This document shows, one piece after another, positions 8,459 to 63,891 of a stretch of 64,000 nucleotides of DNA. The notes beneath the pieces are model-generated. The model made no database searches and was not told the DNA's origin. It worked only from the letters and a program-made list of their open reading frames with translations. Each line of letters opens with the position of its first letter. Position 1 is the stretch's first letter. A program made the position numbers and the translations under genes. The DNA comes from a virus, in the IMG/VR virus record IMGVR_UViG_3300042503_001656, positions 54,037 to 118,036 of that record. One strand, written 5' to 3'.

Positions 8459-14026
<5,568 letters not shown>

Positions 14027-14027
14027 T

Positions 14028-15170: not shown

Positions 15171-15179
15171 AGGAGCAAT

Positions 15180-16280: not shown

Positions 16281-16338
16281 GAAAAACAATAGGATTGTTC
16301 TTTCAATTCTTTACATCACTAAACACTTCTGGTGGGGA

Positions 16339-16367
16339 TAAACACACAAGTCATCCTGGGGTATAAT
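16339..16367 (+). promoter_or_regulatory. promoter with TATAAT, leaderless transcript
   Basis: TAAACA (16339-16344) and a perfect TATAAT (16362-16367) are separated by 17 nt. The ATG of the next gene lies 8 nt after the last base of the -10, exactly where transcription should begin, and there is no Shine-Dalgarno sequence. This predicts a leaderless mRNA, a common type in actinobacteria. Confidence 0.65.
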
Positions 16368-16374
16368 TATCGTC

Positions 16375-30575: not shown

Positions 30576-33500
30576 TAGATTCTCTCTCTTATTCTCTGCT
30601 CAGTAGTCTTTATCTTTGCCATTACCATGTTTGCTATCTCTTCAGGGTTGTTTTGTCCACCGTTTATATGGAAAGTAAACGAATTTCCTCCTGATGTAAC
30701 AGTAGCCTGAGTTGCTACACCCATTTGGTTAGAAGCTGGAGTCAATGTGTCGCCAAGTGCGCCTGGCCCTGGAACTGCATGAAGATGTCTACCCGCTCCA
30801 CTTCCATGGAATTCGGCAAACCCACCAGCATTACGTGTTGCCACGGCGTAGGAACCAAGGTTTTGACCAACAAGGTCGATTGCCCTACCCGTTACATGGT
30901 CAGAGTTGAGTGAACCAAGACCATATGTTCTATACGAAGAGGTGATTGACCTCTTCCCAGGAATAGAGCTGTTAATAGCCTTGTGCCTATCCATTGTTTG
31001 GCTAAGTCGTGAAGAAGTGGTATCACCGACAACGCCACCACGAGGGGTTGTCGTGTCCGTCTGCATTATTTCTTTCATTGCTTCTTTTGACCACCACTCA
31101 GGTTTGGCTGCTTCTGGACCAAAAGCGGTACTCATATCTCTACTGAATTTTTCAACGGCCTCTTTAAACGTTGTTGATGCTGTTTTCATTTCTTTTGCAA
31201 CAGCGTTTGTTTGGTCAGTATCTTGAGCACGAACTATAAGGCCAGCGTTTGTAACCCCATAATTAGCGAACTGTTGATTGAGAAGCATTCCCTGATAGTG
31301 TGCTTTGCTCTTGGCTCCTTTAGAGGTGTACAATTTCTTTGCTTCTGCGTCCGTCATGTTTGCAAACGGGTCCGTTATTTGGAAAATTCCACTTTCAACG
31401 TCGCTTAGGAATCTTTCTCTATTTTCAGCACTCATTTTAGAAATTGCTTCGTTCATCTTTGTAGTGTTGCCGTACCTCCCCATTCCGCCAAGCATTCCCT
31501 GCACTTGAGCGCTAGCGTTGGATATGAGTCCTTTTTCGGTTTCTGTAGATGTTTTAGTGAGAGCCTCAGTAACTTCCGGTGTAAAAAAATCAGCTGGGTT
31601 AATATCAGCAAATGCGCCACCTGGCTTAAAAAGGTCACCAGGGTTAGCAAGTGTGCCTATCTGTCTCTGTTGGGCATAAAAATCCGTTATCGGGTTGTCT
31701 GTCATTCCTATGGATGACTCTTGAAATGCCCTTAAAGCATTGAGTACAGATAATGTGTCTCCTCCACCCCTAATGGTGTCACCAAGCGCCGTACCTCTTT
31801 CGTCATATATTTCGGGCGCTTGAACTCTTTTTATTATTTCGTCAAAACCAGTAGCTATAGCAGAAAGCGATACGTCTATATTGGCCTCTTTCATTTCTTT
31901 TGCAGTTTTAACCATTGTTAAGCCAAGTTTTTCAACTATGTCAGAAGTCTTGAGTGTCGCGTCGTATAGGTCTACACCCATCTTCTTGGCAAGAACTTCT
32001 ATTTCTGCTCCAGACTTTCCGCTCATGTCTTTGAGCAGCTCCATGCGTGCACCTTGCTGCTTGCTGATTGTGTCTGCTGCTTTAAGCCTTTCAGGAAGCT
32101 CTTTAGAAAGCTTTGTAAGTCCAGCGCCTTTGTCTTTGCTTATGGCTGCCATTTCTTCGGGCGTAATAATTCCTTTAAAGGCTGGGTCTTCGCTTATTTC
32201 TTTGAGTATCTTGTAATCTTTTTCTTGTTTTTTCTTTCTTTCACCTCTACCAAAAAGACCTTTTGTTAAACCTGTAATTCCTCCCACGACTCCACCGAGA
32301 ACTGCACCAATACTTCCAAAGGTAGCTGCTGTTACTAAAGAGCCGATAGGTCCGCCGACGCTTCCCGCTATCGCGCCAGTCGCGACTCCAAGTCCTCCGC
32401 CTATTGCTGCGCCAGTACCCATGCCGCCCTTGGTTTGCTCCCATGTCGACTTTCCGTAGTCTCCGCTAAATCCTCGCTCTTTTAGTGCTTTGCTGAGGTT
32501 TCCGTAAGCTGCAGCAGTTTCTCCAGCTATCCCTTCATATGCTCCCGTGCGCCCAGTCATATCTACACCTGCAGCTGCATCTGCCTCTTGTCGAAGTACT
32601 TTGTCTTTGGCATTCATGATTTGACGAGTGGCTATGCCATCAAGAAATGAGCCCATCGCTTCTTTTGATTCTTTTGCTCTTTGTCTCATTCCTCCAGCAA
32701 AACCAGCAACTGCTCCAGTTATCGCACCAAGAGCTGCACCTACAGCAGTACCAATTCCTGGGGCAATCATTGTTCCAATTGCTGCACCCGCACCAGCACC
32801 GGTCATTGCTCCGCCTGCTGCCGTTCTAGAGTTAAGTGCTGCTCCACCGAGACCAACAGCAAGACCGGCTAGTGGGTTGAATTGACCAACCATTGCACCC
32901 ATAGCCATTGCCCCCTGTGCTTCTGGTGCCATGTACTGAGACGCAACTCCCATGCCTAGGCCAACGCCCATTTTTGCACCCATGCTTCTGTTAACTCCGC
33001 TAATACCTTTTTCATCGTTACCGAGAATTGCGGAACCAAGGGCGCTGTTTCTGCGTGAGCGTGAAGTGAGGCCTGCATATTTAATTTTGTTTCTAAAGGT
33101 TTGACCTTTTGTGTCTACAAAACCTGTTTGTGCGTCATATCTAGCGCCCACCGTGGCTATTCTTTGACCTGTAACCGGGTCTATCTTTCTACTTAAATTA
33201 AGCACTTCACCAGTAGATTCATCTAGTGTCGCAAATCGACGGCCAGTAATTTTTCCTCTAAATAAATCTTGACCAACTCCTGTATTACCCTGTGCTTGTT
33301 GTCTTGAGCCATCGAATATGCGACCCAAAAAGCCTCTGCGGCTGTACGCGCCTTGCGTTCCTGGTCCGCCAGCACCAGGAGGAGCTGTTCCTGGACCTCC
33401 AGGACCGGGCATGCCACCGCCACCACCTGCGCCACCACCTGTTGCGCCGCTAGAAAATCTCGCTGCGTCAATTGGGGAACTAGGGCCTGCTGGAGTCGAG

Positions 33501-35686: not shown

Positions 35687-35754
35687 GGTTAGACCTCACA
35701 CGCTATCTGACGATTTTTTTTAGAAATCGCGTGAGTGTAGGAAGGGAACCTAGC

Positions 35755-36458: not shown

Positions 36459-36515
36459 GAGAGAAAACCTAGCACATCATTTATGCTAGCGATGGAACTC
36501 AGTAAAGAAGATTTA

Positions 36516-36995
36516 TCAGCCAGCTGCGCCAGCGCCGGACTCAACGTCCGAGATGGCAAATGTTAGCGAGAAAGTTGCAGGTGCGCCCGAAGATGAGTCA
36601 CCGTCTGGCTCGGTAATGCCAACCAGAAGGGCCTTGTAATAAACTCGGTCTGTGCCTGGAACCTTAAGGTCGCAGTCAGTCGTTTCGATGGTTATGTCAT
36701 AAGAAGCGCGACCAACCAATGGACGAAGTGTTGCAATCTTTTCTGCAATTCCGGTAGGGCCGTCTGCTGCAATTCTGTCGTCATCATAATGAGCGGTTAG
36801 GGTGATGTCGCCGACCTCAGATGGAGCGCAAAGAACTGTCGGGCGGAGCTTGCCACCTTCGTAGATTTTTTCTACAGATGCGGTTATTTCTCCACCAGAA
36901 ACTTGGGCGAAATAGAAACCGGTCCATTTCGGGTGCTTTGTTGGCTCTACTGGATTAATAGAGGCGAGTACTTGGCGTTGAGATACCTTTGGCAT
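36516..36995 (-). CDS. tail tube protein
   Basis: A 159-residue protein immediately after the sheath gene, with beta-rich phrases ('GDITLTAHYDDDRIAADGP', 'YKALLVGITEPDGDSSSGAP', 'ATFSLTFAISD') typical of the tail tube family of myoviruses of actinobacteria. It polymerises around the tape measure to form the inner tube. A good AAGGAT RBS precedes the ATG. It is followed by the chaperone pair, the standard gene order. Confidence 0.8.
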   Translation of the reverse strand: MPKVSQRQVLASINPVEPTKHPKWTGFYFAQVSGGEITASVEKIYEGGKLRPTVLCAPSEVGDITLTAHYDDDRIAADGPTGIAEKIATLRPLVGRASYDITIETTDCDLKVPGTDRVYYKALLVGITEPDGDSSSGAPATFSLTFAISDVESGAGAAG

Positions 36996-37009
36996 GTTTA
37001 TATCCTTCT

Positions 37010-48615: not shown

Positions 48616-49932
48616 CTAGATAACGATAGCAATCCTTCTTCTTTGTTGCAACCCGAGTCCGGCCAAATGTGTAAAAGCCCCAACAGCAGAGTCAACCTGG
48701 TCGTCGTGGTCGCATGCTTCAGGGAAAGAAGAAAGTTCATCAAGCCACTGAGTCAGCCATGGACCCCTAACTACCCTTACGTTTCCATTTGCTACTGCTG
48801 CGGCAAATGGTCTAGCCCTAGTGACCTTGTCTCCGGTTGCCCTAACTCCAGAAAAGTTATAACCGGGAAGAACGTATCTGGCGTACTGGTCGACAAGCGC
48901 TTTACCGCTTGAGCCGGGCTCCATTTCCATAAGAATCGGGGTATCTAGACCGTCTTCGTATGCTGTTTGAGATATTAATTGCTCGACTTTTTCCCCACGA
49001 ACCCTGACTCTCTTGACGTCCATGATGTAAGCAATGCCTTGGTCAAACATCATCAAGGTTCCAACCGTGTAGTCAGGGTCAGGGTTGTTTGGACTTGGTT
49101 CGGTTGCTGCAAGGTCCCAGAACCTAACAACCCTTGCTGTGTTGGATATTGTTGGGACTTCAGACTGGTCAATAATAATTACCGACTCTCGTTCAAAGAG
49201 GCTTCCGAGAGTCGTGCTCCACCAGTCACCTTCTTCAAGTCGTCTACGCTCGATTGGGTCAAGGGCTTGCAAAGCCTGACGATACGAATCAGCGTCAATT
49301 CCGGGGTTGTCCGTAAGTTTTGAAGGTACGAATATTCTTCCTTCAGACAATCCCTCAACAATGAATCTCTGCCTCACCCAGTTGGGCGCAGGGTTAGATG
49401 CGCAACGCATTCTGAGGGGGACTTCCGATAGGGGGCCAGAGTTGGGTCGACGCAAACGGGAGAACATGTAGCGATAGTCGGATTCCCGGATTTCGGTGAC
49501 TTCGTCCATTCCGATGAACTGGAATTCAGAACCTTTGTAGCGAAGATAGTCGGACTGGTTGTTTAGGTATCCAAACGAGATTCTTGCCCCCGAAGGGAAG
49601 GTAGCCACGAAGCTGTTGTTGTTCCAGTGGACATCGTCGTAGTTAGACATCCACGATTTAAAGCGGTCCATGAGTGCTCCAGGTAGCGACAAGTCTGCGA
49701 ATGTTCGACGGAAAAGAATTGCAGAATAGTTGGGGACATCTACAAACTGAAGGGCGGACATCAAAAGCGCAGAAGACTTACCACCGCCAGCAGCACCCCC
49801 AAAAAGGGCCTCAATGCCGTTAGTTCTCAAAAATACCTTTTGAGGCAAAGATGGCTCTTCTGGGCAGTAGTCGGACATCTTTGGTTGGAGATACTCAAGA
49901 ACTTGTTCCCAGTTCGTAGGTTGTTCTGACAT
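48616..49932 (-). CDS. terL: terminase large subunit
   Basis: A 438-residue protein with the two-domain terminase layout. ATPase: Walker A 'ALFGGAAGGGKSS' (about 43-54), Walker B 'FQFIGMDE' (Asp143, Glu144). RNase H-like nuclease: Asp273 in 'RFWDLAATEP', the 'YIMDVKRVRVRG' strand, 'ILMEMEPGSSGKAL', and the last acidic pair in 'DHDDQVDSA'. It translocates DNA into the prohead and cuts concatemers. GGAG precedes the ATG. Unusually, it is leftward, diverging from the portal. No small subunit is obvious in this window. Confidence 0.9.
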   Translation of the reverse strand: MSEQPTNWEQVLEYLQPKMSDYCPEEPSLPQKVFLRTNGIEALFGGAAGGGKSSALLMSALQFVDVPNYSAILFRRTFADLSLPGALMDRFKSWMSNYDDVHWNNNSFVATFPSGARISFGYLNNQSDYLRYKGSEFQFIGMDEVTEIRESDYRYMFSRLRRPNSGPLSEVPLRMRCASNPAPNWVRQRFIVEGLSEGRIFVPSKLTDNPGIDADSYRQALQALDPIERRRLEEGDWWSTTLGSLFERESVIIIDQSEVPTISNTARVVRFWDLAATEPSPNNPDPDYTVGTLMMFDQGIAYIMDVKRVRVRGEKVEQLISQTAYEDGLDTPILMEMEPGSSGKALVDQYARYVLPGYNFSGVRATGDKVTRARPFAAAVANGNVRVVRGPWLTQWLDELSSFPEACDHDDQVDSAVGAFTHLAGLGLQQRRRIAIVI

Positions 49933-50173: not shown

Positions 50174-52252
50174 ATGGCATGGAACGCTTCAACGAACAAG
50201 TCGCTGAATAATCAAGCACAAAAAGACATTGGACCTGGAGCACCAGTAGCCCAAAATCCCGGCTATGCAGGCAAGCCGTACAGGGACTCCTGGGATATTG
50301 AGCGTGCCTATAGAGAAGGCATGCAGAAGGTTACATGGGTGTCTAGGTGTATCGATGCCATTGCTGGAAACCAGGCAAGACTGCCGATAATACTCAGAAA
50401 AGACAACTCACCTCATGGTGAAATTCTTTCAATCAGAGAGTCAAAAAAGACAAATCTTCTTAATATTCTAAACTCAAAGTCTAATGTTGGAGAAAACTCC
50501 TACATTTTTAGATACAGACTTTCTGCTCAGTTGATGCTTGGCACCAGGGGTGCTTTTATTGAAAAAGTAAGAGGACGAGACGGCGGAATAATTGGCCTCA
50601 ACCTATTACCTCCTCAGTCAACCTCCCCAATACCAGACCCTAAAAAGTTTGTTTCTGGCTACGAAGTTCAAATGCCCACAGGAAACAAGGTCTACCTGAA
50701 GCCAGAAGACGTTTGCTGGGTGAGAAGACCTCACCCAATCGACCCATACTTGTCACTGACCCCATTGGAGGCCTGTGGCGTTGCGATTGAAATAGAAAAC
50801 CTGGCAAAGCTTTACAACAGAAACTACCTATTAAACGACGGTAGACCGGGTGGTTTGCTTGTTCTTCGTGGAGAAATCGACGACGACGACAAAGAAGAAT
50901 TGAGAAGCCGTTTCCGTGGAAACCTTTCACGCGCTGGATATACCTCTGTAATCGCTTCCGACGACGGTGTTGACTATGTTGACACTTCAGCAAACCCAAG
51001 AGACGCTGCGTACATACAGATGCGTCAAATAACAAAGGAGGAAATCCTTGCTTCATTTGGTGTTCCAGAGTCGGTTATCGGTAATGCTGCTGGTAGAACT
51101 TTTAGCAACGCTTCGGAAGAAATTCGTGTCTTTTGGATGGAGACGATGCTTCCCCATTTGGAGATTCTTTCACGGGCTCTAGATGAACTAGATGAAGACA
51201 ACTATGTTGACTTCAATGTTGACCAAGTGCCCATTTTGATGCTTTACGAGCAGGAGCGCCACCGCTACTTGATGGACGAATTCAACGCAGGTCTTATCAG
51301 CAATAACGAGTACAGAATAGGCTCAGGTCGCAAAGAAACAGAAAGCGACCTTGCTGACTCGCTCTTGGCTAATCCAAACCTTATTCCTATTGCAAATACG
51401 AAGAAGAAGATGGAAGAGCCTTCTCAGGCACAGGTTCCAGGGGCACCAGGACAGCCTGGGATGCCCGGAATGCCTCCAGGTGCACCCGGCATGCCTCCGA
51501 TGCCAGGAATGCCTCCAGGACCGGAAGCACAGCCAGCACTTGACCCAAATACGATGGCTGGGGCAATGGCAGAAGTATCTGGAGCACAAGCAGGTGGAGA
51601 ACTGGCACAATCTCCAATCCCAGGAATGCCTCCAGGAATGATGACCGGAGCAGAGCCAGTACCTCCTGGTGCTACCTCTGCTGAGTCGCCAACCATAATG
51701 ACAAAAGACGCCCTCGAAGCAATTTCCCAAAAGCAAGAAATCGAAAGATGGGAAGAGATACTTGTCAGAAGCATGGAAAGAGTCATGGAAAGACAACAGC
51801 GTGTTGTTCTTGAGAAGTCAAGTGGAGCAAAAGCAAAGAAGGCTTTGTTTGCTGGAACCCTAGATATCCCATCTGTGCTTCACTCAGAGACATGGGATAG
51901 GCAATTCGATGAGGACATCAGGCCGGTAATTACGGCCATAGTCAAAGAATCGTTAAAAGCTTCTACATCAATCGAGAAAAAGTCCGCGAAAAGTTGGGAA
52001 GTAGAGTCTGACATCATTGCTCAAGTTGATTCTCAAATGTTACGAATCAAGAGCTTAAACCAGGATTTGACAGAGGAAATTACTTCCCTCATGTTGTCTT
52101 CTCTGAATGTTTCTGACGAAGACCAGCGAGCTGGCGCTTTTAGGTCAAACATCGTGTCTTTGTATACAAATGTGTTGGCAAAACGGCTTCCGGAGATAGC
52201 TAGCGAGGAATCTAGGCGTGCCTGGACTTACGGAAAATTCATCGCTAGATAG
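50174..52252 (+). CDS. portal protein with long disordered C-terminus
   Basis: A 692-residue protein of the HK97-type portal family: 'VTWVSRCIDAIAGNQARLP' at the start, 'YRLSAQLMLGTRGAFIEKVR', 'LLPPQSTSPIPDP', 'LEACGVAIEIENLAKLYNRN' and 'RQITKEEILASFGVPESVIG' in the usual order to about residue 430. The rest is an unusual extension of about 260 residues with PGMP/PGAP-type repeats (about 420-460), then a helical C-terminal domain ('RSMERVMERQQRVVLEKSS'). The same PGMP repeat is found in the following protease protein, so the two may interact. It forms the DNA entry ring of the head. Confidence 0.9.
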   Translation: MAWNASTNKSLNNQAQKDIGPGAPVAQNPGYAGKPYRDSWDIERAYREGMQKVTWVSRCIDAIAGNQARLPIILRKDNSPHGEILSIRESKKTNLLNILNSKSNVGENSYIFRYRLSAQLMLGTRGAFIEKVRGRDGGIIGLNLLPPQSTSPIPDPKKFVSGYEVQMPTGNKVYLKPEDVCWVRRPHPIDPYLSLTPLEACGVAIEIENLAKLYNRNYLLNDGRPGGLLVLRGEIDDDDKEELRSRFRGNLSRAGYTSVIASDDGVDYVDTSANPRDAAYIQMRQITKEEILASFGVPESVIGNAAGRTFSNASEEIRVFWMETMLPHLEILSRALDELDEDNYVDFNVDQVPILMLYEQERHRYLMDEFNAGLISNNEYRIGSGRKETESDLADSLLANPNLIPIANTKKKMEEPSQAQVPGAPGQPGMPGMPPGAPGMPPMPGMPPGPEAQPALDPNTMAGAMAEVSGAQAGGELAQSPIPGMPPGMMTGAEPVPPGATSAESPTIMTKDALEAISQKQEIERWEEILVRSMERVMERQQRVVLEKSSGAKAKKALFAGTLDIPSVLHSETWDRQFDEDIRPVITAIVKESLKASTSIEKKSAKSWEVESDIIAQVDSQMLRIKSLNQDLTEEITSLMLSSLNVSDEDQRAGAFRSNIVSLYTNVLAKRLPEIASEESRRAWTYGKFIAR

Positions 52253-52322
52253 TTTTAGTATTTAGTTTTAGTAAACGACGCTAAAAACCTGAATACTTGC
52301 GGTTTCCATTGGTATTTTCGTT

Positions 52323-52350: not shown

Positions 52351-52875
52351 ATGTCCTCTTCTAATAAAAAATCCGACATTCAGTACAAGGCTGCACCGCA
52401 AGGAATGGTGAATTTAGACGAGGCCCAAGGCATCGTCGAATGTTTTGTCGCTGGGATAGGCAACAAAGACTCTGTTGGTGACGTTTGCGCACCAGGGGCT
52501 TTCGGCAAGAGTCTTACCAGAAGGAAGCCACGAGTCGTATGGGGACACAACTGGAACGACCCCATTGGCAAGGTCATCGACATGTACGAGGTTCCACCCA
52601 ACGACCCTCGTTTACCAGCAAAGATGAAGGCTGCAGGAATTGGCGGTCTTTATGCTCGCGTTCAATTCAACCTTATGTCGGAAAAGGGTCGTGAGGCGTT
52701 TGCCAATGTTGCTTTCTTTGGTGAAGAGCAAGAGTGGTCTATTGGTTACAAAACAATCAATGCAAAATTTGACCCACAGATGCAAGCAAACATTCTTTAT
52801 GAAGTAGAGCTTTATGAAGTGTCTCCAGTTCTTCATGGAGCAAACCAGCTGACAGGAACAATTTCAGTAAAGTCA
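52351..52875 (+). other. S78 prohead protease domain
   Basis: Residues 1-175 have the family phrases 'AQGIVECFVAGIGNKDSVGD', 'RKPRVVWGHNWNDPIGKVI' (catalytic His66), 'EEQEWSIGYKT' (Ser130) and 'LYEVSPVLHGAN' (acid near 156). This is the HK97/P22-type capsid maturation protease. It normally cuts scaffold and capsid N-termini inside the prohead and here heads a 3846-residue protein. Residue numbers are counted from the ATG at 52351; the catalytic assignment is by family pattern. Confidence 0.85.
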
Positions 52876-55800
52876 GAAGAGCAGCCATCTGGCGTTTCAG
52901 TAATTAATGCACCAAGCATTGATGGGTTAAACGTAAATGAGCTTTCTTCTATTCTTGAAGCACTTAAGGCTATTTCTTCTTCCGTTTCAGAAGACGAAAA
53001 GTGTGGACCAGGAATGATGCCACAAGGAATGCCAGGAATGCCTTCTGGCGGACCAGGTATGCCTTCTGGGCCGAAGCCAATGCATACAAACACTCCTGGT
53101 GCAGCACCAAGAGAAGTTGTTAAACCACAAATTCCATCCATGCCAGAAAACCCAATGACCGTAGCGCTTCGCCGTGAACTCGCGACTCGCACTGGCTCAA
53201 ATGTAATTGTGCGTTCAGCAAGTGACAGTGTCGTCGTTTTTGACAGGGTGCTGGCTGACGGAACATCAAGCACATACAGATTGCCTTTCCACTATGCCGG
53301 TGGAGAGTTTATGTTCGGCAAGCCAGAAAAAGTTCAGTCTCAAGCAAACTACGTCCAAGATTCTCCTTTGTCTGAAATCATGGTTGAAGCGCTTCTTTCT
53401 GGCCCCACTGCAGGCGCAGAAAAGTCTTTAATCTCTTTTGACGACCAAGAGTGGGGTGAAGGATTTGGGCAATCAATTCCGTCACAGCAAGTTGATGCTT
53501 CAACTTTGAATAGCGTTATCGCTAATCTTCAAAAAATAATCGAGCAGAAATCTGAATATGTTGTTCAAGTTGCTCCAGAACATGCTTTTGAAGTAAAGCA
53601 AGCGATAGACCCAATTCTTGATTTCTACAAGGTTGACGCAACCATCAATGAAGATGGAATTGTTGTTAAGTCACTCAATGAAGACTTTTTGAACGCTCTT
53701 GACATCGCCACAAAAGGCGTATTACGCAGTCTTGGCAACCTTGCGGGTAGAGCAATAGACCGCCCTAATATTGGCAGAAACAGAAGAGACAGAACACCCA
53801 ACCTTGCATCACGAGGCCCTGGAATTGGTTCACGAGGAGCGGTAGTAAGACTCCGTGATGGAAGCACGTGGGACCCAAAAAACGCACCGGATAGAAACCG
53901 TAATGGCATTGTAGGTGAAGGCCTCTTTGACAGTAGCGGAAGGTCGTTGGCACAGCCAGACCCAACACCAGAGGGGCCAGATTCTATCCGGGGAGCAAAG
54001 ACACCAAAGTCACCGCAGACCCCTAAAAGGCAGGCAGCGGCTGCCGCAAAAAGAAACGCTACTGTAAAAAGAACTTCTGGGCAGCCCCAGAAAGCAAGGC
54101 AGCGTCTTTCTTCAGGCGGAATTGACCAAGAAGTTGACGATACACCAATGCTTGAGGAGAAGTTCAAGAAGGAAGTCTCTGGCTTTTTGTCTGAAATAGG
54201 AACAAACCGTAATGAGATAGAAAACATTCTTGACCTGTGGGAAAACAACGATGCAGACCATGACAAGTACATGGAAGAGCATGGAGCTGGTTCAAAAAAC
54301 TTTGCTGAAAACGTGGCTTATGCAGCGTCAGCAATGTACGAAGACTACATCTCTGATGCGGGAGATAGGCAGGCTGACCGTCGTGCCGAGGGAGGGCGTT
54401 TCTCGTCTGGCGAGTGGACAAAAATTCCTGGTGTTGGCTATGAGATGGATGCCCCAGACATTGAAGGTGTTTATGAAATACAGGAAGGCCTTGACGGGAA
54501 GTTCTATGTAGTCAGATACTCCGATGGCAACCGTAATGGTGGCCAAAACATGGGCATATATGAGCATGATAAGCCTTTCTCTACTCTTGCAGCAGCAAAG
54601 AAGTGGTCTGAAAAAGACTATGCGCAAGCAGCTGATGAATATATGCCAGATGGCATGGAGGATGCAGATTCAGAAGATGGCGAAAGGTTCTCTTCTGGTC
54701 AAATTGACTTCGACAAGATAGGCGAATCGGGCCTCAGAGAAATGCGCCATGTTGAGCGCAACCCTCTTAGATTTGATACACAGGCAGACAAAGATGCACG
54801 CGCTGCGTACGAACGGGTTGTAGCAAACTTTAGAGCAAACAACGGTTTCTTCCGTGAAGTACCTATGTATGCAGGTGACAAAAAGTGGCACAGCGAAGAC
54901 TGGTTCCGTGGCCGCGAGATGGCAGAAAACGTTGCCACCTTGCGATTTGGTGACCCAATTGACCAAATGCCGTTCTTCGATAAACCAGGCAAGCCATCAA
55001 AAAGAGAATTCTTCGAGAGAACTACAACTGTTGATTACAGGTCCTGGTACATGGCAAAAATTCCAGCCATGACGCAAGAGTTGGACAGAGTGCTTGCTTC
55101 CGACGCCTATTCAGATGAATACAAAGAAGCATTCCTAGAAGGAATGAGGACATTCTTCTACGTGAATAGGCCAAACCTTCAGTACGCTCCGAAAGATACA
55201 CAGGCGCAGTATGAAGAATGGCTTCAGCGTTCAGGTCTCGGCTGGAAGGGTAGATACTCTACTTCTGGTCCAAAATTCGAAGACATGGAAACAAACAGAT
55301 TTTCTTCTGGTGCTACAGGTAGAGATAACAAGGTAATTGAGTCTTACGAAAACGTTGACGACCTCAAAGAAGCAATGTTTAGTGCTCTCTGGGAAATGTC
55401 ACTAAAGGGTGACATTGATGGTGTTACGGCAGAAGAACTTGCAGATGCGATTAGCGTAAATACGAACTGGGTAGAACCACATCTTGAAGATGTAAAGAAT
55501 TACGCGCTTGATGCAAGAAGAAGTATGGATGAGTATTACTCTTCCATTCCTGAGCTAACCGACGAAGAGATGGACCAGGAATACAGGGACTGGCTGGATT
55601 CACAGGCTGGCAAAGACAGCGCTCGTGCCATGACTATTAAAGAAAAATTCGACAGCATGACCGACGAAGAGGCAGCTGATTATGTTGCTTGGCTCGAAGA
55701 AGAGACATGGAGAGACAGAAGCGATACGTACTTCTCATCTGGAGAAAGAGGAACCCCTGAAGAGAGGGTAGAGCTCTATAACAGGAGAGCCTCTGAAAAG

Positions 55801-58800
55801 AATGCAATTCTTGAGTCCATGACACCAGAAGAGCTTGCAGAATATGCAGAGCAGTGGAATGAAGACCATCGCGAAGATGAAAGATTCTCGTCTGGCCAAG
55901 TCAATAGACCGAAGTCAACAAAAACCGGAGAAGAGTTTATTGGCCGTAGCTACGGTCTTCATGATTTTTTTGTTTACGACGAAGAAGACGATTTTGAGAA
56001 TATTGACAAGGCGATTGTAGATTCACTTCTCAAAGGCGAAAGAATGTCCCTTGATGACCTTCTGCTTGAAGTGCGAGGCATCAATGACCCCGACCTCAGC
56101 GGAGAAGCACTGGTCCGCAGACCAGACCAAATGGGCGCAAACGCAAGACGCGTTGCTGAAGCTGTTGCAAACAATACATCCGTTAGTCCATCGTTGGCCA
56201 ACCAGAAGGCTGGAAGGGAAGACATACTTCACTTTAGTTACAATGGTAAACAGCGTTCTATATACCCAGAGACTTTTTCAACAAGCAAAAAGGGTGTTGG
56301 CTATTTTGTTGGCTGGGACGAAACCGCAGATAACGGCAATGGCGCATATAGAAGTTTCAATATAGACAAAATAGAAGGCCTTATATCTAGCGCAATACCT
56401 CCACATGTAGACAGGGCAGCAAGGTATACAGATTATTCATGGAACATAACTGACTTCTCTGATGAAGATAATCAAAAAATTCTTGAACAGATGCGACGTA
56501 CTAAAGAGTTCAGGGTTCTTGATGACGCGCAAGACCTGATAGACGATGAGGTGAGCGCAGGAGGCACAAGAGTTGCAGGCTCGACTCTTGATATTGCGGA
56601 AAAAGAAGCCCAAGCAGCTTTCCAAGATGCTCGCAATAGACAAATTGACAAGATGGTTGCCGACGGCAAAATTAAGCCGCTATCAAGAGATAGTAGATTC
56701 TCTTCAGGAATGGTTAACGACGGTCTTCCAGACGGATACTGGGACACCGCAGACGACATGGCAGATTCTTATGGCGACAGAGAAGACTACACAGACGCAA
56801 GGTTCTCCTCTGGTGGAATGCCAAGCACTAAAGAGCAAGCAGACCTAATAGCTTTTGCTAGGTCAAAGCCTGGCACTTTTACAGACAGTGTTGTTTCTCA
56901 ATTTGACAGAAACAGAAGACTGTCAGAAAAGCAATGGGACGCAATACGTAGAATGATGCGCGGTGCATCTGGTGGTAAGGCTGCTCCAAAAGCAGATAAG
57001 CCAACTGCTCGTTTTTCTGGAAAGCGTCGTCAAATTGTAGATATTGCCGATATTGAAAAGTATGACTACCCAGAGCTTCCTGCAAAGATAAAGCCAACAC
57101 CAGAACAAGACAGAGCTATCGATGCGATGATGACTGGTGCAGACGTAAAGATTGGTGCTTTAGCAGCAACAGGCAAGACGACAACTGTCATTAACTTTGC
57201 CAACCGCCTCAAGGCTAAAGAACCAGACGCAAGGGTTGTCTATCTCGTGTTTAACAGAAACGCAAAAGACGACGTAGAAAAGCGTGGAATGCCAGGAAAC
57301 GTTTCTGTCTCAACGATGGACGGAATTGCTTACAGAGCAATGGACGCTATCAACCCAGAAATGACCAAGAAGAGCTTTGACAAAAAAGAGGGCCACATAA
57401 AGCCAATCAACTCTTTCAAAGATAGAGCTAAGTATCTTGGTACAAAGGGAATGGTTTCCCAAGGCGAAGAATTGACCGATGTTGATGTTTATAGAATTGT
57501 AGCTAAAGCGATAGATGCATATTCAATAAGCGACGACAAGGAAATTGGACCACAACACTTTACTGGCCCATACAACGGTTCATACAAGGTGACAGACACT
57601 TCATTGCTTCCCGAGTTGCTTAAGTATGCAAACAAGATGTGGGAAGACATGAATCTTCCTAGAGTCAATGGTGCCACCAGGAAAGACCAAAAAGGAATGC
57701 TTCCTGTAAACAACACACATCTAACAAAGATGTGGGCATTGACAAATCCAGACATAGGCGAAATTGCTGAAGTCAATGTAGCAATGGTTGACGAAGCTCA
57801 AGACATGAACCCAGTTTTTGCTGGAATATTGAGGAACTCAAACCTTCAGAAAATCTACATTGGTGACACAAACCAGGCAATTAACGCATGGCGTGGAGCA
57901 GACGGAACAACGCTTGCAAATGTAGAAGCAACATACGACATGCCAATTACTGATTCGTTCAGATTCGGCAAGAACGTAGCGAACATGGGCAACAGATTCC
58001 TTTCGCTTCTCAATACAAAAGAGCGCATGACCGGAAGAAAGACAGACAAGTCTGGAAATCCTGTTGACGGAAGAATTGGACAGGTTGATAACCCAACAAT
58101 GATTTTGACACGCTCTAATGGCGGAGCCATCGCTGCAACCATGGAAGTGTTTGCAGATGGTGGAATTGTTTACGGAAGCCAAAACTTCAAGAGAGATTTG
58201 GAGAACTTCTTAAACAACATCGAATGGATGCAGAATGCCCAAAAGGGCAAACCGTTCTATACAGACGTATATGGAAAGCAAGTATTTTCAGCTCCTGAGT
58301 TCAGTCAAGACCTTGACGGAATTACAAACATTGCAGACTTCAATAAGGCTATTGAAAAGGGCGATGACAACAGACTAAACATGCTTTCTAAGCTGATGAA
58401 CGATTACTCGCTTGAAGACTTGAGAGAATCTCTCAACAACATCATTACAGACAAAAACAAGCTTCCAAAAAATCGTGATGAGTATGTTCACATTCAGACA
58501 GCCCACACATCCAAGGGTCTTGAGTCGCCACGAGTCAAGATTTGGTCAGACTTTAGAAAGCCAAAGAAGCTTGAGAACGGTGAATGGCAATACCCTGATG
58601 AGCAGGAGATGAGGCTTTCTTATGTTGCCGTAACAAGAGCAGAGGAAGAACTTGACCTTGGTTCACTTAGTTGGATTCTTGACCACACAACAGAAGAAGA
58701 CGGTATGCCAAATACTTTCTCTTCTGGAAGAAGCAAAGCAAGAGGCAACAGGGGTGATGGCAAGGGAAGACAAAAACCATGGTCGGCAGAAGATAGGCAA

Positions 58801-61800
58801 AGATTTGCGGACAGGGACATTCTTCGTTCACAAACACGCCCAGGAAAGCGTCGTCCAGGTCCTTCAGCAAACGAATTCTCGTCTGGTGCTGAATTTGATT
58901 TCACTCCAGAAGAGCTCAATAGGTGGCAAAAAGCTAGCGAACATGCCAGCGCATATGGCGATTGGGAAAATCTTCCAGAAAACAGAAAAAACGGATATCT
59001 TCGTAAATTTAACGGAGATGAAAATCTTGCTCGCGAGCAATTTAACGTGGAAAGAGATTTGGCAGACTTTGCTGCAGATGCACAATTCGACAAAACAAAT
59101 TCACGATTCTCTTCTGGAGGCCGTTTCGCACCACAACCGCAAGCACCAGAGGGCTGGGAAATGCCAGAAATTGGTGATGACGGCGAAATAAAGAATGGAC
59201 CGCTTAAGGGTTACTACATTCGTGAATTCGGTGACCCTTTTGTACCAGGAAGAAAGTACGTAAGCTATGGTGGCACACACTACAGCACTACCGATGAGCA
59301 CAAAAATACCCTAGTTGAATGGGGTGACTACGAGCCTGGCTACACCATCGACAGAAACATAGGCTCTGACGAAGACATTAGGGGTATTGCTGACTCTTCC
59401 GAGCAAGAAGAAATGGCGCAGTATGGCGACGAAGGTTTGTACTATGGCAATAGTTCACGTGGGCGATACGACCCTCAAAATGATTATGAAACTTCAGTAA
59501 CCGACGACTCCCATTCACCAGAAAACGGTGAAGACCACATCGGTAAAGCCGTATCCGTAACGGATGAAAATGGAAACAAATTCTACGGTGTAGTTGTTAG
59601 AGGTTGGGAACCGGAATACGAAGAAGACTTAGATGTTGATGAGGATGGGTGGGCAACCCCGAGCATGAACATACAAGACGGTGGCATGGTAGTTCTCGCT
59701 ACTCATGATGCTGACGGCAAAAAACTTGATAAACCAGTAGTTGTTGAGGCAAGTTTTGGTCTTGAAAATGAATACGCCCTCGTATCAAATGTTGAGAGAG
59801 GTGGAGACGATTACGAAGGGCCAAAGGTCAATGTATCAAAAGGCCGTGTAAGTGAAGAAACCCTTGACGAAGCCAAAAAGCTTTATGAAGAACTGGACCC
59901 ATATAGAAATGGTAAAGCCGACGAGTTCAGGCGTCAAGGAGCCTTGATAGATAGAACATGGAGAATGCCGGGAGGCGAAAAAGAGCGCAGGGAAAAAGCT
60001 GCCGAAGAAGCTTACAGAAGAAGCCCTGAAGGAATACAAGAGCAAAGAGAAAAGCTAGAAGCATCCATATCGGCTATAGAAGACAAGATAAGAAGCGCGG
60101 AGTCTTCTCGTGAATCTCTCATGGAGAGGCTGAACGACGTTTCTGAAAGTGGAGACAATGTCCTTGCTTCAAAAATGGAAGAAATATTAAGAGACAGAGA
60201 GGGAGCGGTACGACTCCTCCAAGAAAAACTTGAAGAAGCAAAAGCTGAACTAGATGCTTTTAATGGCGAAGGAAACAGGCTTTCTTCTGGAAGATTTGCG
60301 CCTGATGGACAATCGGGTTCAAGGCTTCAAAGAAGACTTTCTTCTGGCGATGTTTTTGGCCCACCACCAGGACAGTCGGCAAGATATGACCGCAAGAAGC
60401 AAGTCGAAGCAACGATGGGTGCATTCCACTCTGACCCAGGAATGGCTCGTGTATCTAGCGACGCAGAAGGCATTTTAGGAAAGATACCTTCTGGCAAGAA
60501 CTCGCATGTTCTTAACCTAGAAGCAGCAAAGAGAATAATTGCAGACCCTGACGGTGAGTATTCAGCAGAAACTGGATGGCCAGTTGATGCCGGAAGACTG
60601 CTTGATTTTATTCAAATTGATAACCCTCTTGGTGGAAGCCCAAGCACTCTTCGTGACAAAGACGACGCACAACTTATTGCAAGGGTTTTGGGTATACCAG
60701 CATCGGACGCTCAAGACATGCTTGATGGGAAGCCTGTATACATTGCCAGCTCAACTGCGGCTGACATGTTTGACAACCTTTCAAGAACAAAAGAGTACAC
60801 ATCAAGCGTTGGTGGATTAAACGACGTAGCGAGAGTTTGGGGATTTGATGGCGCTCCAAAGTGGGTGCGTCATAGCGACATTGCTACCCCCGAGTTTGAC
60901 CTCGATGAAAACGACAGAGTTAACTGGTCGCAGGTTAAATGGGATGGCCTCTCAAGGGCTGACTTTGATGCAGCAGTAAGAAGAGGGAACAACCCACCAG
61001 AACCCGTATACACATCTCCTGTTGAGTTTTTCAATAGTGATGCAATCGCCAGCAACCCCAAGTGGGACGCTCGTGGTGGCTCATTCAGGAACCCAACAGT
61101 CGATGCTGAGTTCACTGCAACACCAAAGAAGGTTTCCAGAGCCGAACAGTTGGAGCCAGAAAGATTTGTTTCTCAGGCAAGAGCTGGAGAAAGGGTTGCG
61201 CGCGCTGACAAAGATTTTATGGACGAATGGACCAACGGAAGTCATGGAATTGGTGCAGCACAGCTCATGCAGATGCTTGGATTGGAAAGAGATTCAGAAG
61301 GAGACCGCATAAGTAGCCAAGACGTAAGAAAGCTTCTTGACGAAATAAACAAGATTAAAGAAGAAGCTGGAAGCGGACTTGTTCCTGCTGCAAAGAGAGA
61401 AGATGGCAAATTTAAAGAATCACTTGAGCTGGACACAAAGAAGTCTCCAATCAATGATGAAATAATGCATGCACTCATTGTCTCTGGAAGATTCAAGAAC
61501 ATGAAAGAAGCAGTTGCTTCGCTTGGTGACCCAAGACTTGATTCTCTTGCCGCAGAATACGACTCCCGCATGCTTGTCGATGCAGCATTCATAAGAATCA
61601 AGGACCATCTAAACAAGGTTGGAGCAGCTGACCAAAAGAAGATTCTTTCTAAGGTAATCACTGCCGCTCTTGGTCGCAAGACAACACTTGAATCTCGCGT
61701 ACAGGAAGGCAGAGCATCCATCAAGGGTGTAATGAATTCAGACGCAATGATTGGCGATGAAAAGCTTTCCGAAGTAATTGGCATGGTCAACGAGGTTCTT

Positions 61801-63891
61801 GAGGCAAGGGGTCTTGAGACAATCGACAAGGATGCATTGTTCCCAAGGGACGAGGCAGGCGGATTTGTGAACAACTTGAGTGCTTCGGCTCCAGGCGCAA
61901 CGAGGCTTGCTTCTGGTCAGAGGTTTGTAGCCAGAACCGCATCAAGCAGAAGAGCTGATGCCGGAATGGATGCTGCAGCAAGAAGAGCAACAGATAGGCC
62001 AACGTTCTCAAGCGGTGCGAAGCCAGCATTTAGGGACCCAGACGGAAAACTGAACGCCACAAACATGAGAGATGCTGCATCCGAAGCAACAATTCCAGAA
62101 GGAACAAGGATAAGAAAAACTCCTGGCCAAAATATAGAAGACTTTGAAAAAGCAGTTAAGACGAGGGCCGAAATAGCAGAAACCCTAAACATAGATACTT
62201 CAGCAATAAATGGCTTTACTGTCTACGACGTTATAGACGAGCTTAAAAAGGCAGGAATACCTGAAGATACCGCAGAAGACCTTGTCGATAAGCTTGTAGA
62301 ACTAGATTTCTATATTGATGCAATCGAGGAGAGATTCTCTGAAGCCAGAGAAATCATGGATGAAGCTATTGAAGAAGCTGAAGATGCTATGGACAAGATT
62401 GCGAAACTAAGAAAAGAGCGTGCCGACATTATTAATAGGTACGGCGAAGAAGATGGACAGCCACTGCTTGAGGTTGTTGATGAAAAAATTAGCAGAGCGA
62501 CCAAAAAGCTTGACGATGCCTACCAAAGAGGTATCGGCAATGAGGATGCAAGAATGGGAACTCTCTATTCTCAGGTTGACGAAATTCTGAGTAATAATCG
62601 TGGATGGAGAGAGTATTCGCCATCCCCATATAGAGATAGTACAAATCAGAACCTTGCTGCTCTTGAATTAGCAATTGCAAAAGCTGGCGGAGTAAAGAAA
62701 GCCGTACCAGTTACGGGAATAGATTTCGGAGTTCCAGAAGGCACAAGGCTTTCTTCAGGAAAAGCAGAAGAGTATTACCAAAACCTCACAAGCCACTTGA
62801 TAAACATGATTGAAAAATCACAAAAAGAAGGCGGTAAGTGGGAAGCACCATGGCATAAGGCTGGAAATCTTCCAAGAAATGCTTCTACAAAGAATATGTA
62901 TTCGGGTGGAAACATCTTTGCTCTTATGCTTGCAGCCGAAGAAAAGGGCTTCACAACCTCTCACTGGGGTGGATTCCAGCAGTGGAAGAAGCTTGGAGGA
63001 AGCGTAAAGAAGGGCGAAAAGGCAACCATCATCCTCATGCCAAAGCAGATGTTTGGTGAGGAAATCGACCCAGACACAGGGCAGAAGGTTAGAAAGTCAA
63101 AGGGCGTATATTTTACGACCGCACATGTTTTCAACCTTGACCAAGTTGAGGGAATTGACCGCGATGAGTTCTTGAAGCTGCCGACAGATGCCCTGACACC
63201 AGAGCAGAGAGTCACAAAGCTTGAAGACGCAATCAAGGAAGTTGGTGCAACAATCAAGACCGGAGATGGAAGTAGGGCTTACTACTCTCCGCGTGAAGAC
63301 CATGTTGTGATGCCTCCATTCGAACTGTTCAAGTCCCCAGAGGGATACTACGGAACACTCGCCCATGAGCTTGTTCACTGGACAGGGCATTCGTCAAGAC
63401 TTGACAGAAAGAATATGAACCAGTTTGGTTCTCCTGACTATGCAAGAGAAGAGCTTATTGCTGAATTTGGCTCAGCTTTCCTGTTGGCAATGTTTGGTCT
63501 TTCTGCAGAACCAAGAGAAGACCATGCCCATTACTTGGCAAACTGGTTGCAGGTTCTTCGCGATGAGCCAAATGCTCTGCAGGAAGCAGCAACAAAAGCT
63601 CAAGAAGCGTCAAAAATGCTCATTGAAAAAATGAAGGCAGTTCTGGAAGAGATGGGCGAAACAGCATCTTCTGCTGAATCCGACATAGAAGAAAAGAATG
63701 CAAACATTTTTACAGACCCGCTTTACGGAATAAAGAATGAACTTGTTGAATGGAGCAAAAACATTGAAAATGCTCCATATTTCATTAAGTCCTTGACAAA
63801 CCCCGACGAAGAACACGGAAATGTAAATAGAAGATGGGAAAGAATTGCAGAAGCAGCGCTATTCCTAAACGGCATAAACAACAAAATCTAG
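52351..63891 (+). CDS. prohead protease polyprotein with helicase and ArdC modules
   Basis: A 3846-residue protein; I choose the ATG at 52351 because AAGGAG lies 5 nt before it (an in-frame TTG exists at 52297). Residues 1-175 are an S78-type prohead protease. A Pro/Gly/Met linker (PGMP repeats) follows, then segments separated by about 17 copies of an R-[F/L]-S-S-G motif. Residues about 1575-2105 are a UvrD/FBH1-like helicase, and 3466-3846 are an ArdC-like antirestriction protein with a zincin HExxH. The other segments (96-523 residues, some coiled coils near 2560-2640 and 3315-3390) have no recognised fold. The frame is open for 11.5 kb with no stop, and the spacing of motifs matches domain edges. 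I infer a self-cleaved polyprotein whose pieces are packaged in the head; an unprocessed giant scaffold is the alternative. Confidence 0.9.
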   Translation: MSSSNKKSDIQYKAAPQGMVNLDEAQGIVECFVAGIGNKDSVGDVCAPGAFGKSLTRRKPRVVWGHNWNDPIGKVIDMYEVPPNDPRLPAKMKAAGIGGLYARVQFNLMSEKGREAFANVAFFGEEQEWSIGYKTINAKFDPQMQANILYEVELYEVSPVLHGANQLTGTISVKSEEQPSGVSVINAPSIDGLNVNELSSILEALKAISSSVSEDEKCGPGMMPQGMPGMPSGGPGMPSGPKPMHTNTPGAAPREVVKPQIPSMPENPMTVALRRELATRTGSNVIVRSASDSVVVFDRVLADGTSSTYRLPFHYAGGEFMFGKPEKVQSQANYVQDSPLSEIMVEALLSGPTAGAEKSLISFDDQEWGEGFGQSIPSQQVDASTLNSVIANLQKIIEQKSEYVVQVAPEHAFEVKQAIDPILDFYKVDATINEDGIVVKSLNEDFLNALDIATKGVLRSLGNLAGRAIDRPNIGRNRRDRTPNLASRGPGIGSRGAVVRLRDGSTWDPKNAPDRNRNGIVGEGLFDSSGRSLAQPDPTPEGPDSIRGAKTPKSPQTPKRQAAAAAKRNATVKRTSGQPQKARQRLSSGGIDQEVDDTPMLEEKFKKEVSGFLSEIGTNRNEIENILDLWENNDADHDKYMEEHGAGSKNFAENVAYAASAMYEDYISDAGDRQADRRAEGGRFSSGEWTKIPGVGYEMDAPDIEGVYEIQEGLDGKFYVVRYSDGNRNGGQNMGIYEHDKPFSTLAAAKKWSEKDYAQAADEYMPDGMEDADSEDGERFSSGQIDFDKIGESGLREMRHVERNPLRFDTQADKDARAAYERVVANFRANNGFFREVPMYAGDKKWHSEDWFRGREMAENVATLRFGDPIDQMPFFDKPGKPSKREFFERTTTVDYRSWYMAKIPAMTQELDRVLASDAYSDEYKEAFLEGMRTFFYVNRPNLQYAPKDTQAQYEEWLQRSGLGWKGRYSTSGPKFEDMETNRFSSGATGRDNKVIESYENVDDLKEAMFSALWEMSLKGDIDGVTAEELADAISVNTNWVEPHLEDVKNYALDARRSMDEYYSSIPELTDEEMDQEYRDWLDSQAGKDSARAMTIKEKFDSMTDEEAADYVAWLEEETWRDRSDTYFSSGERGTPEERVELYNRRASEKNAILESMTPEELAEYAEQWNEDHREDERFSSGQVNRPKSTKTGEEFIGRSYGLHDFFVYDEEDDFENIDKAIVDSLLKGERMSLDDLLLEVRGINDPDLSGEALVRRPDQMGANARRVAEAVANNTSVSPSLANQKAGREDILHFSYNGKQRSIYPETFSTSKKGVGYFVGWDETADNGNGAYRSFNIDKIEGLISSAIPPHVDRAARYTDYSWNITDFSDEDNQKILEQMRRTKEFRVLDDAQDLIDDEVSAGGTRVAGSTLDIAEKEAQAAFQDARNRQIDKMVADGKIKPLSRDSRFSSGMVNDGLPDGYWDTADDMADSYGDREDYTDARFSSGGMPSTKEQADLIAFARSKPGTFTDSVVSQFDRNRRLSEKQWDAIRRMMRGASGGKAAPKADKPTARFSGKRRQIVDIADIEKYDYPELPAKIKPTPEQDRAIDAMMTGADVKIGALAATGKTTTVINFANRLKAKEPDARVVYLVFNRNAKDDVEKRGMPGNVSVSTMDGIAYRAMDAINPEMTKKSFDKKEGHIKPINSFKDRAKYLGTKGMVSQGEELTDVDVYRIVAKAIDAYSISDDKEIGPQHFTGPYNGSYKVTDTSLLPELLKYANKMWEDMNLPRVNGATRKDQKGMLPVNNTHLTKMWALTNPDIGEIAEVNVAMVDEAQDMNPVFAGILRNSNLQKIYIGDTNQAINAWRGADGTTLANVEATYDMPITDSFRFGKNVANMGNRFLSLLNTKERMTGRKTDKSGNPVDGRIGQVDNPTMILTRSNGGAIAATMEVFADGGIVYGSQNFKRDLENFLNNIEWMQNAQKGKPFYTDVYGKQVFSAPEFSQDLDGITNIADFNKAIEKGDDNRLNMLSKLMNDYSLEDLRESLNNIITDKNKLPKNRDEYVHIQTAHTSKGLESPRVKIWSDFRKPKKLENGEWQYPDEQEMRLSYVAVTRAEEELDLGSLSWILDHTTEEDGMPNTFSSGRSKARGNRGDGKGRQKPWSAEDRQRFADRDILRSQTRPGKRRPGPSANEFSSGAEFDFTPEELNRWQKASEHASAYGDWENLPENRKNGYLRKFNGDENLAREQFNVERDLADFAADAQFDKTNSRFSSGGRFAPQPQAPEGWEMPEIGDDGEIKNGPLKGYYIREFGDPFVPGRKYVSYGGTHYSTTDEHKNTLVEWGDYEPGYTIDRNIGSDEDIRGIADSSEQEEMAQYGDEGLYYGNSSRGRYDPQNDYETSVTDDSHSPENGEDHIGKAVSVTDENGNKFYGVVVRGWEPEYEEDLDVDEDGWATPSMNIQDGGMVVLATHDADGKKLDKPVVVEASFGLENEYALVSNVERGGDDYEGPKVNVSKGRVSEETLDEAKKLYEELDPYRNGKADEFRRQGALIDRTWRMPGGEKERREKAAEEAYRRSPEGIQEQREKLEASISAIEDKIRSAESSRESLMERLNDVSESGDNVLASKMEEILRDREGAVRLLQEKLEEAKAELDAFNGEGNRLSSGRFAPDGQSGSRLQRRLSSGDVFGPPPGQSARYDRKKQVEATMGAFHSDPGMARVSSDAEGILGKIPSGKNSHVLNLEAAKRIIADPDGEYSAETGWPVDAGRLLDFIQIDNPLGGSPSTLRDKDDAQLIARVLGIPASDAQDMLDGKPVYIASSTAADMFDNLSRTKEYTSSVGGLNDVARVWGFDGAPKWVRHSDIATPEFDLDENDRVNWSQVKWDGLSRADFDAAVRRGNNPPEPVYTSPVEFFNSDAIASNPKWDARGGSFRNPTVDAEFTATPKKVSRAEQLEPERFVSQARAGERVARADKDFMDEWTNGSHGIGAAQLMQMLGLERDSEGDRISSQDVRKLLDEINKIKEEAGSGLVPAAKREDGKFKESLELDTKKSPINDEIMHALIVSGRFKNMKEAVASLGDPRLDSLAAEYDSRMLVDAAFIRIKDHLNKVGAADQKKILSKVITAALGRKTTLESRVQEGRASIKGVMNSDAMIGDEKLSEVIGMVNEVLEARGLETIDKDALFPRDEAGGFVNNLSASAPGATRLASGQRFVARTASSRRADAGMDAAARRATDRPTFSSGAKPAFRDPDGKLNATNMRDAASEATIPEGTRIRKTPGQNIEDFEKAVKTRAEIAETLNIDTSAINGFTVYDVIDELKKAGIPEDTAEDLVDKLVELDFYIDAIEERFSEAREIMDEAIEEAEDAMDKIAKLRKERADIINRYGEEDGQPLLEVVDEKISRATKKLDDAYQRGIGNEDARMGTLYSQVDEILSNNRGWREYSPSPYRDSTNQNLAALELAIAKAGGVKKAVPVTGIDFGVPEGTRLSSGKAEEYYQNLTSHLINMIEKSQKEGGKWEAPWHKAGNLPRNASTKNMYSGGNIFALMLAAEEKGFTTSHWGGFQQWKKLGGSVKKGEKATIILMPKQMFGEEIDPDTGQKVRKSKGVYFTTAHVFNLDQVEGIDRDEFLKLPTDALTPEQRVTKLEDAIKEVGATIKTGDGSRAYYSPREDHVVMPPFELFKSPEGYYGTLAHELVHWTGHSSRLDRKNMNQFGSPDYAREELIAEFGSAFLLAMFGLSAEPREDHAHYLANWLQVLRDEPNALQEAATKAQEASKMLIEKMKAVLEEMGETASSAESDIEEKNANIFTDPLYGIKNELVEWSKNIENAPYFIKSLTNPDEEHGNVNRRWERIAEAALFLNGINNKI
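54103..62760 (+). repeat. array of R-[F/L]-S-S-G motifs, putative cleavage sites
   Basis: In-frame motif positions (first base): 54103 RLSSG, 54397 RFSSG, 54685 RFSSG, 55297 RFSSG, 55729 YFSSG, 55882 RFSSG, 56695 RFSSG, 56800 RFSSG, 57010 RFSG, 58714 TFSSG, 58873 EFSSG, 59104 RFSSG, 60277 RLSSG, 60334 RLSSG, 61903 RLASG, 62002 TFSSG, 62746 RLSSG. The synonymous codons differ between copies (cgt/agg/aga, tct/tcg/tca), so the peptide, not the DNA, is conserved. They cut the protein into segments of about 19 to 568 residues that match domain edges. Confidence 0.9.
57085..58680 (+). other. UvrD/FBH1-like SF1 helicase domain
   Basis: Residues about 1580-2110 carry superfamily 1 motifs: Q-like 'PTPEQDRAID', Walker A 'GALAATGKTTT' (1602-1612), Walker B 'VAMVDEAQDM' (Asp1814, Glu1815), motif III 'KIYIGDTNQAINAWRGAD', motif IV/V-like 'YVHIQTAHTSKGLE' and motif VI 'SYVAVTRAEEEL' (Arg2096). 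The order and the 'GDTNQAI(N)AWRGA' phrase match FBH1-type UvrD helicases. It is bounded by RFSG (1554) and TFSSG (2122). Confidence 0.85.
62764..63888 (+). other. ArdC-like antirestriction domain with zincin site
   Basis: Residues about 3472-3846: an ssDNA-binding ArdC N-domain ('GGKWEAPWHKAGN', 'NIFALMLAAEEKGF', 'WKKLGGSVKKGEKAT') and a metallopeptidase domain with 'AHELVHWTGH' (His3672, Glu3673, His3676) and a downstream 'REELIAEFGSAF' (third ligand region). ArdC proteins protect incoming DNA from restriction. It follows the last RLSSG motif (3466), so it could be released as a free protein of about 380 residues. Confidence 0.85.

Follow-up and report, generated by a model that had tools for sequence, protein, structure and literature searches.

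Among the systems closest to the locus reported here, the polyvalent proteins are long multidomain proteins encoded near virion genes, in which ArdC-N, MPTase-PolyVal and helicase domains are combined; their description predicts delivery and auto-processing, places assemblin-like peptidases, when present, at the C-terminus and already draws the analogy with RNA-virus polyproteins (PMC5512222). In the case of phage SPN3US, the head protease cuts gp245 and other packaged ejection proteins after the short motif AXE (PMC10052503), and DarA of phage P1 is processed by the head protease Pro (PMC12810830). We analysed a 64,000-nucleotide stretch of viral DNA, hereafter the window (positions 54,037 to 118,036 of the IMG/VR record IMGVR_UViG_3300042503_001656, the right end of a 118-kb contig), which carries a giant open reading frame (ORF), polyprotein 1, opened by an S78-type prohead protease domain and punctuated by a short repeated peptide. 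Polyprotein 1 resembles the polyvalent proteins in its length, in its location near virion genes and in the association of disparate domains, ArdC-N and MPTase included, within one polypeptide. It departs from their rule of a C-terminal assemblin-like peptidase, its S78 domain being N-terminal, and it displays a genome-specific recurrent boundary site, common to several ORFs, of which the available passages of PMC5512222 give no example. With SPN3US and P1 DarA it would share the action of one head protease on several head and packaged proteins, the cut products staying in the virion. Those systems, however, involve separate proteins that lose N-terminal propeptides, whereas here many modules are joined end to end in one chain, with a motif that changes from one sister lineage to another; furthermore, the motifs mostly follow a hydrophobic-x-Ser (h-x-S) pattern and not the AXE rule (PMC10052503).

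The nearest cultured relatives of the protease, found in the Gordonia/Brevibacterium phages GMA6, ScarletRaider and Cantare (38-40% identity), have their genes immediately before that of the major capsid protein (MCP) and are stand-alone enzymes of roughly 420-485 amino acids (aa), devoid of cargo and of repeated motif. The infection of Gordonia and Brevibacterium by these phages hints at Actinomycetota as the host group. The 2,710-aa gp78 of Arthrobacter phage Racecar (L123) has a helicase 34.5% identical to that of polyprotein 1 and a C-terminal HEFGH motif, and sits between the portal and a capsid protease; its linkers, however, are PE-rich with no repeated site, and the protease is encoded by a separate gene. 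In the library that we searched, S78-led polyproteins with multiple sites are not described, nor is the combination of a head protease at the N-terminus with cargo in series and with a single site that serves all the giant ORFs of a genome and switches between lineages.

We consider it probable, from sequence comparisons, that polyprotein 1 and its companions are head polyproteins that process themselves: they would be cut in trans, with the S78 domain as the most likely enzyme, at an h-x-S site particular to each lineage, and would deliver polyvalent cargo. The frame and its recognised domains are the following, residues being counted from the mechanical TTG start (TTG = 1; numbering from the ATG is obtained by subtracting 18).

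52351..63891, + strand: polyprotein 1, 3,846 aa from the ATG; mechanical ORF start TTG at 52297
52432..52863, + strand: Peptidase_S78 / HK97-type prohead protease domain, residues 46-189 (PF04586, E 3.3e-9; PHROG 3244, head maturation protease)
57100..58653, + strand: UvrD-type helicase domain, residues 1602-2119, within module 56806-58719 (PF00580/PF13361; PHROG 1967)
62770..63132, + strand: ArdC N-terminal anti-restriction domain (ArdcN), residues 3492-3612 (PF08401, E 2e-25; PHROG 7245)
63217..63594, + strand: MPTase-PolyVal zincin-like peptidase domain, residues 3641-3766 (PF18818, E 1.3e-43)

The frame is uninterrupted up to its stop, which ends at 63891, and the ATG at 52351 is closely preceded by an AGGAG Shine-Dalgarno sequence. 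Because homologous frames are present in independent contigs, polyprotein 1 is not an assembly artefact. Sixteen in-frame sites of the form x[F/L][S/A]SG are distributed along it.

54103..54117, + strand: site 1, RLSSG, residue 603
54397..54411, + strand: site 2, RFSSG, residue 701
54685..54699, + strand: site 3, RFSSG, residue 797
55297..55311, + strand: site 4, RFSSG, residue 1001; left edge of the block exchanged relative to genome G001
55729..55743, + strand: site 5, YFSSG, residue 1145
55882..55896, + strand: site 6, RFSSG, residue 1196; right edge of the same block
56695..56709, + strand: site 7, RFSSG, residue 1467
56800..56814, + strand: site 8, RFSSG, residue 1502; left flank of the helicase module
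58714..58728, + strand: site 9, TFSSG, residue 2140; right flank of the helicase module
58873..58887, + strand: site 10, EFSSG, residue 2193
59104..59118, + strand: site 11, RFSSG, residue 2270
60277..60291, + strand: site 12, RLSSG, residue 2661
60334..60348, + strand: site 13, RLSSG, residue 2680
61903..61917, + strand: site 14, RLASG, residue 3203
62002..62016, + strand: site 15, TFSSG, residue 3236
62746..62760, + strand: site 16, RLSSG, residue 3484; 7 residues ahead of ArdcN

A slightly narrower pattern is counted 16 times against 0.107 expected, with a maximum of 2 in 1,000 shuffles, which rules out chance or low complexity as the origin of the motif. The 11 R[F/L]SSG copies are encoded by 11 distinct DNA 15-mers; it is therefore the peptide that selection keeps. 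None of the sites falls within a recognised domain of polyprotein 1. A preliminary description of this DNA had announced an S78-type prohead protease at the head of a frame of about 11.5 kb, and both Pfam and PHROGs place Peptidase_S78 near the N-terminus. It had also reported some 17 copies of the motif, of which the recurrence stands while the figure becomes 16. Its proposals that codons vary between copies under peptide-level selection, and that the motif lies at the edges of modules such as the helicase and ArdC, agree with the 11 different 15-mers and with the lack of any site inside the domains confirmed by Pfam and PHROGs.

The same relation between sites and modules is found in the related genomes, most of which are metagenomic fragments. 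None of 98 sites lies inside a Pfam domain, against 12.4 expected (P about 1e-6). Over 60 module pairs, which include near relatives and are not all independent, 125 of the 227 ends of high-scoring segment pairs are no more than 15 aa away from a site, where 30 are expected (at most 66 in 1,000), and only 17 sites lie inside such segments against 111 expected. When homologous helicase, ArdC and exonuclease modules are compared across genomes and ORFs, each is flanked by the motif of its own genome: the helicase modules of the window (RFSSG/TFSSG) and of L042 (KLSSG/KLSSG) share 60% identity, and the exonuclease module in G002 polyprotein 1 (3135-3416, RMSSG/GLSSG) is 55% identical to that in G005 polyprotein 2 (2018-2302, GMRS/GMRS). 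The window and G001, which have 99% identical proteases, show a DNA identity of about 0.97 up to the site near aa 1002, where it falls to 0.6-0.7; it has returned to 0.93 by aa 1211, just beyond the site at aa 1197, which points to a recent exchange of the block between the two sites. AlphaFold2 (AF2) modelling of aa 1460-2279 places each of the five sites of this region in a segment with a predicted local distance difference test score (pLDDT) below 50, a range that also covers about 40% of the model, built on a shallow alignment. Such exchange at motif points would be expected if the repeats were produced by DNA-level recombination or homogenisation spreading the modules, without any role of the peptide; the diversity of codons among the 11 R[FL]SSG copies and the flanking of homologous modules by each genome's own peptide largely refute this origin, which we regard as highly improbable.

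In unsupervised enrichment, a single motif dominates in each genome: R[FL]SSG in the window, G001, G002 and G008, R-GLAS-S in G003, GFSS-T in G004, GMRSR in G005 (about 50 sites across its giant ORFs) and SSRS-R in G006, further loci giving KLSSG, GLSSG, GMASR, FASTS and GLRS-G. The motif-by-genome table is nearly diagonal, where no more than about 0.2 sites are expected in any class. For example, G005 has 45 GMRS-type and no RFSSG-type sites, and G001 has 19 RFSSG-type and no GMRS-type sites. The several giant ORFs of one genome carry a common motif that is nearly absent from the other genomes, and scans of whole contigs show it to be almost confined to these ORFs; in G003, an additional motif-bearing polyprotein (28352-37690) lies outside the portal-capsid interval. 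Most motifs conform to h-x-S, where x is Ser, Ala or Arg. The L398 polyprotein carries an unrelated-looking repeat, GPVGRM (GPVG-M; 8 copies of GP.G.M). Both GPVGRM and SSRS-R fit h-x-S poorly. The relatives possess from two to about six motif-bearing ORFs each, so that the preliminary description was mistaken in seeing a single polyprotein; the comparison of related genomes that it called for came out as it had anticipated, the segment content varying while the motif persists, with the motif switching in step across the ORFs of one genome.

Two further elements bear on how the motif may be used.

53746..53979, + strand: common pre-cut domain, with an EF-hand-like DxDxDGxVxEG loop that is degenerate here (profile match, E 3.6e-14)
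33446..33460, - strand: single RFSSG in a tape-measure-like ORF of 1,703 aa (30575-35686)

The profile of the pre-cut domain, a region of approximately 50 aa, was built from the EF-hand-like stretch DPxAWDGDGDGxVQEGTPFxRPAIPG. It detects a single copy in each of 22 ORFs (that of the window and 21 others), and the domain is N-terminal of the first site in all 18 ORFs that have both, nearby genomes included and thus not all independent. It is a candidate prohead-targeting or encapsidation tag that would itself be cut away. The tape-measure-like label comes from sequence pattern and tail-gene context, as no profile names this ORF in profile searches. Its homologues carry two adjacent GLAS in G003, GMRS in G005 and a weaker variant, SSRAKR, in G006; in these genomes and in the window, all the sites are in a variable linker that follows the conserved first 550 aa.

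An uncut motif would also be conceivable, as a linker or a docking peptide (for scaffold or capsid binding, for example), the cargo being kept as one polyvalent chain. Any linker would sit at domain boundaries, and the 0 of 98 sites in Pfam domains is compatible with it. We nevertheless find this role improbable: the near-invariance of the peptide within each genome, its coordinated switching and its use in the tape-measure-like protein fit a single recognition factor acting in trans, docking could do without a site at every join, and the frame itself encodes a protease. Furthermore, a docking partner switching together with the motif, such as the MCP, predicts varying MCPs, yet these are well conserved. 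That the motif is kept by selection on the peptide and delimits the modules is well supported, as is its behaviour as the recognition site of a trans-acting factor. Polyprotein 1 has in common with proteolytically processed polyproteins an embedded protease and a site recurring at module boundaries, and the sequences argue strongly for the motif being a processing site.

The mechanism that we propose starts with the N-terminal part of the chain, which would direct it to the prohead interior. During prohead maturation, the S78 protease of the same genome would cleave the peptide, probably as h-x|S, thereby freeing 10-20 separate cargo proteins, among which the helicase, the ArdC anti-restriction protein, the metallopeptidase and proteins of unknown function. 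The freed proteins would stay associated with the DNA and pass with it into the next host. Since one protease would serve all the polyproteins and the tape-measure-like protein, a change of specificity must be matched at every site, and any module bearing the local site could plug in. The packaging and ejection of the cargo are plausible in view of the portal-MCP synteny, the common pre-cut domain and the precedents of T4, P1 DarA and SPN3US. On balance we also favour, with somewhat less assurance than the processing itself, the broader view of a tailed-phage lineage that has adopted an RNA-virus-like polyprotein strategy: a protease-led plug-in payload, with one genome-wide cleavage signal present in several polyproteins and a tail protein and repeatedly rewritten in step with the protease.

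The S78 family is known for the processing of head proteins, and in HK97 the cut is made at a Lys-Ser bond. The S78 domain is the natural candidate because it lies in frame, is a head protease and belongs to this family; it is probably the processing enzyme. Its PF04586 match reaches 37.5 bits against a cut-off of 21, and its score with the NCBIfam equivalog TIGR01543 is 43.8 bits, below the 59-bit cut-off; by these profiles it belongs to the HK97 protease family without an equivalence call to HK97 gp4. His66 (WGHNW) and Ser130 (EWSIGY), in ATG numbering, are invariant across 42 relatives. The AF2 model of the protease is of moderate quality (pLDDT 69), with T4 gp21 as the nearest fold in the PDB (probability 0.89, E 0.056); a sequence search against solved structures returned nothing useful. 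Lys53 of the protease is replaced in 8 of 12 proteins with Arg as the P1 residue and in none of 17 with Ser at P1, from few independent events. As a P1 specificity residue it was nearly perfect in a first set but not in a larger one, so that only a hint is retained. Of the claim that the motif is the protease's own cleavage site, the recognition in trans at module boundaries is well supported, and the identity of the enzyme as S78 is probable in the face of a rival carrying HExxH.

Several points count against this interpretation. Cleavage, packaging, ejection and the scissile bond are all read from sequence, and the S78 assignment from position and precedent. Some sites are so near each other (2661/2680, for example) that the fragments would be too short for folding. 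On the protease tree the motif classes require 9 changes (minimum 8, shuffled 20.3), an agreement expected of any inherited trait. Lys53 is imperfect as the S78 specificity residue, for the 17 proteins with P1 = Ser all have it and so do 4 of the 12 with P1 = Arg. Whatever the motif of the lineage, the presumed processing region of the MCP keeps a similar form, [IF]K-S[IL]G; we rejected it as a copy of the genome motif, as it fits only the looser h-x-S. Finally, polyprotein 2 has a zincin-like HExxH towards its N-terminus, near aa 560-730, in each of the seven genomes in which it is seen (G001, G002, G008, G003, G004, G005 and G006), and, as the main rival to S78, such a metallopeptidase, that of polyprotein 2 or MPTase-PolyVal, might be the enzyme for which the motifs are processing sites. 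Zincin auto-processing is proposed by Iyer et al. (PMC5512222). G003 and G004 have a motif but lack MPTase-PolyVal, which is therefore not required. The HExxH-bearing proteins of Racecar and Cantare are without repeated motif, which holds equally for S78, and it is S78 that stands at the start of polyprotein 1 and that classically processes head proteins. We judge a zincin to be an unlikely, though not negligible, candidate and retain S78 as the probable enzyme. In L082, a second giant ORF with HExxH starts at 12812.

If this model is true, it provides a clear case of polyprotein logic in double-stranded DNA tailed phages, and the site of each genome becomes a parsing rule giving the start and the stop of each cargo protein. 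Many unannotated modules would therefore be separable in silico as candidate injected anti-defence proteins, and a modular system of delivery into bacteria might be envisaged. With at least 10 site variants and protease domains about 70-95% identical to that of the window, the family would also serve as a natural experiment on how a protease and its substrates co-evolve.

A search of IMG/VR with the protease region gave 540 related loci from one query, and at least about 600 with other queries. Across the family, the tail behind the protease is between about 200 and 4,500 aa long, and the repeated motif is found in 35 of 41 relatives with a tail above 1,200 aa and in none of 18 with a tail below 600 aa. 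Because the contig of the window stops there, the genes beyond polyprotein 1 are visible in relatives only. The order is portal, polyprotein 1, a Zn-ribbon-like protein (470-600 aa; 709 in G005), the second giant ORF, several genes, some of them also giant, and the HK97-fold MCP. A Phage_capsid match is found downstream in 7 of 9 records, which, with the portal upstream, places the protease between portal and MCP; a 516-aa downstream protein was discarded as the MCP, the Phage_capsid match sitting further along. The C-terminal stretch of the GMA6 protease (L120, Orf19; AMPDGSFPI...KEAAKKHIKKRAK) is recognisable in the Zn-ribbon-like protein of L082 (11244-12794), as if an ancestral protease gene had been split by the insertion of cargo. 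RNase_T is among the domains added by the polyproteins of other genomes. The cargo of G005 (10873-17718) and G002 (53158-67368) includes a Zeta-toxin-like kinase, pentapeptide repeats, sigma-70 region 4 and KTSC domains.

On the window itself, the portal and terminase genes lie next to polyprotein 1.

50174..52252, + strand: portal protein, directly upstream of polyprotein 1 (PF04860, E 3e-48)
48616..49932, - strand: large terminase subunit (PF17289, E 3.3e-12)

Elsewhere in the window, a 1,855-aa tail fibre with collagen repeats is encoded at 8459-14026 (+ strand), and the Baseplate_J protein encoded at 24443-25894 suggests that the tail is contractile.
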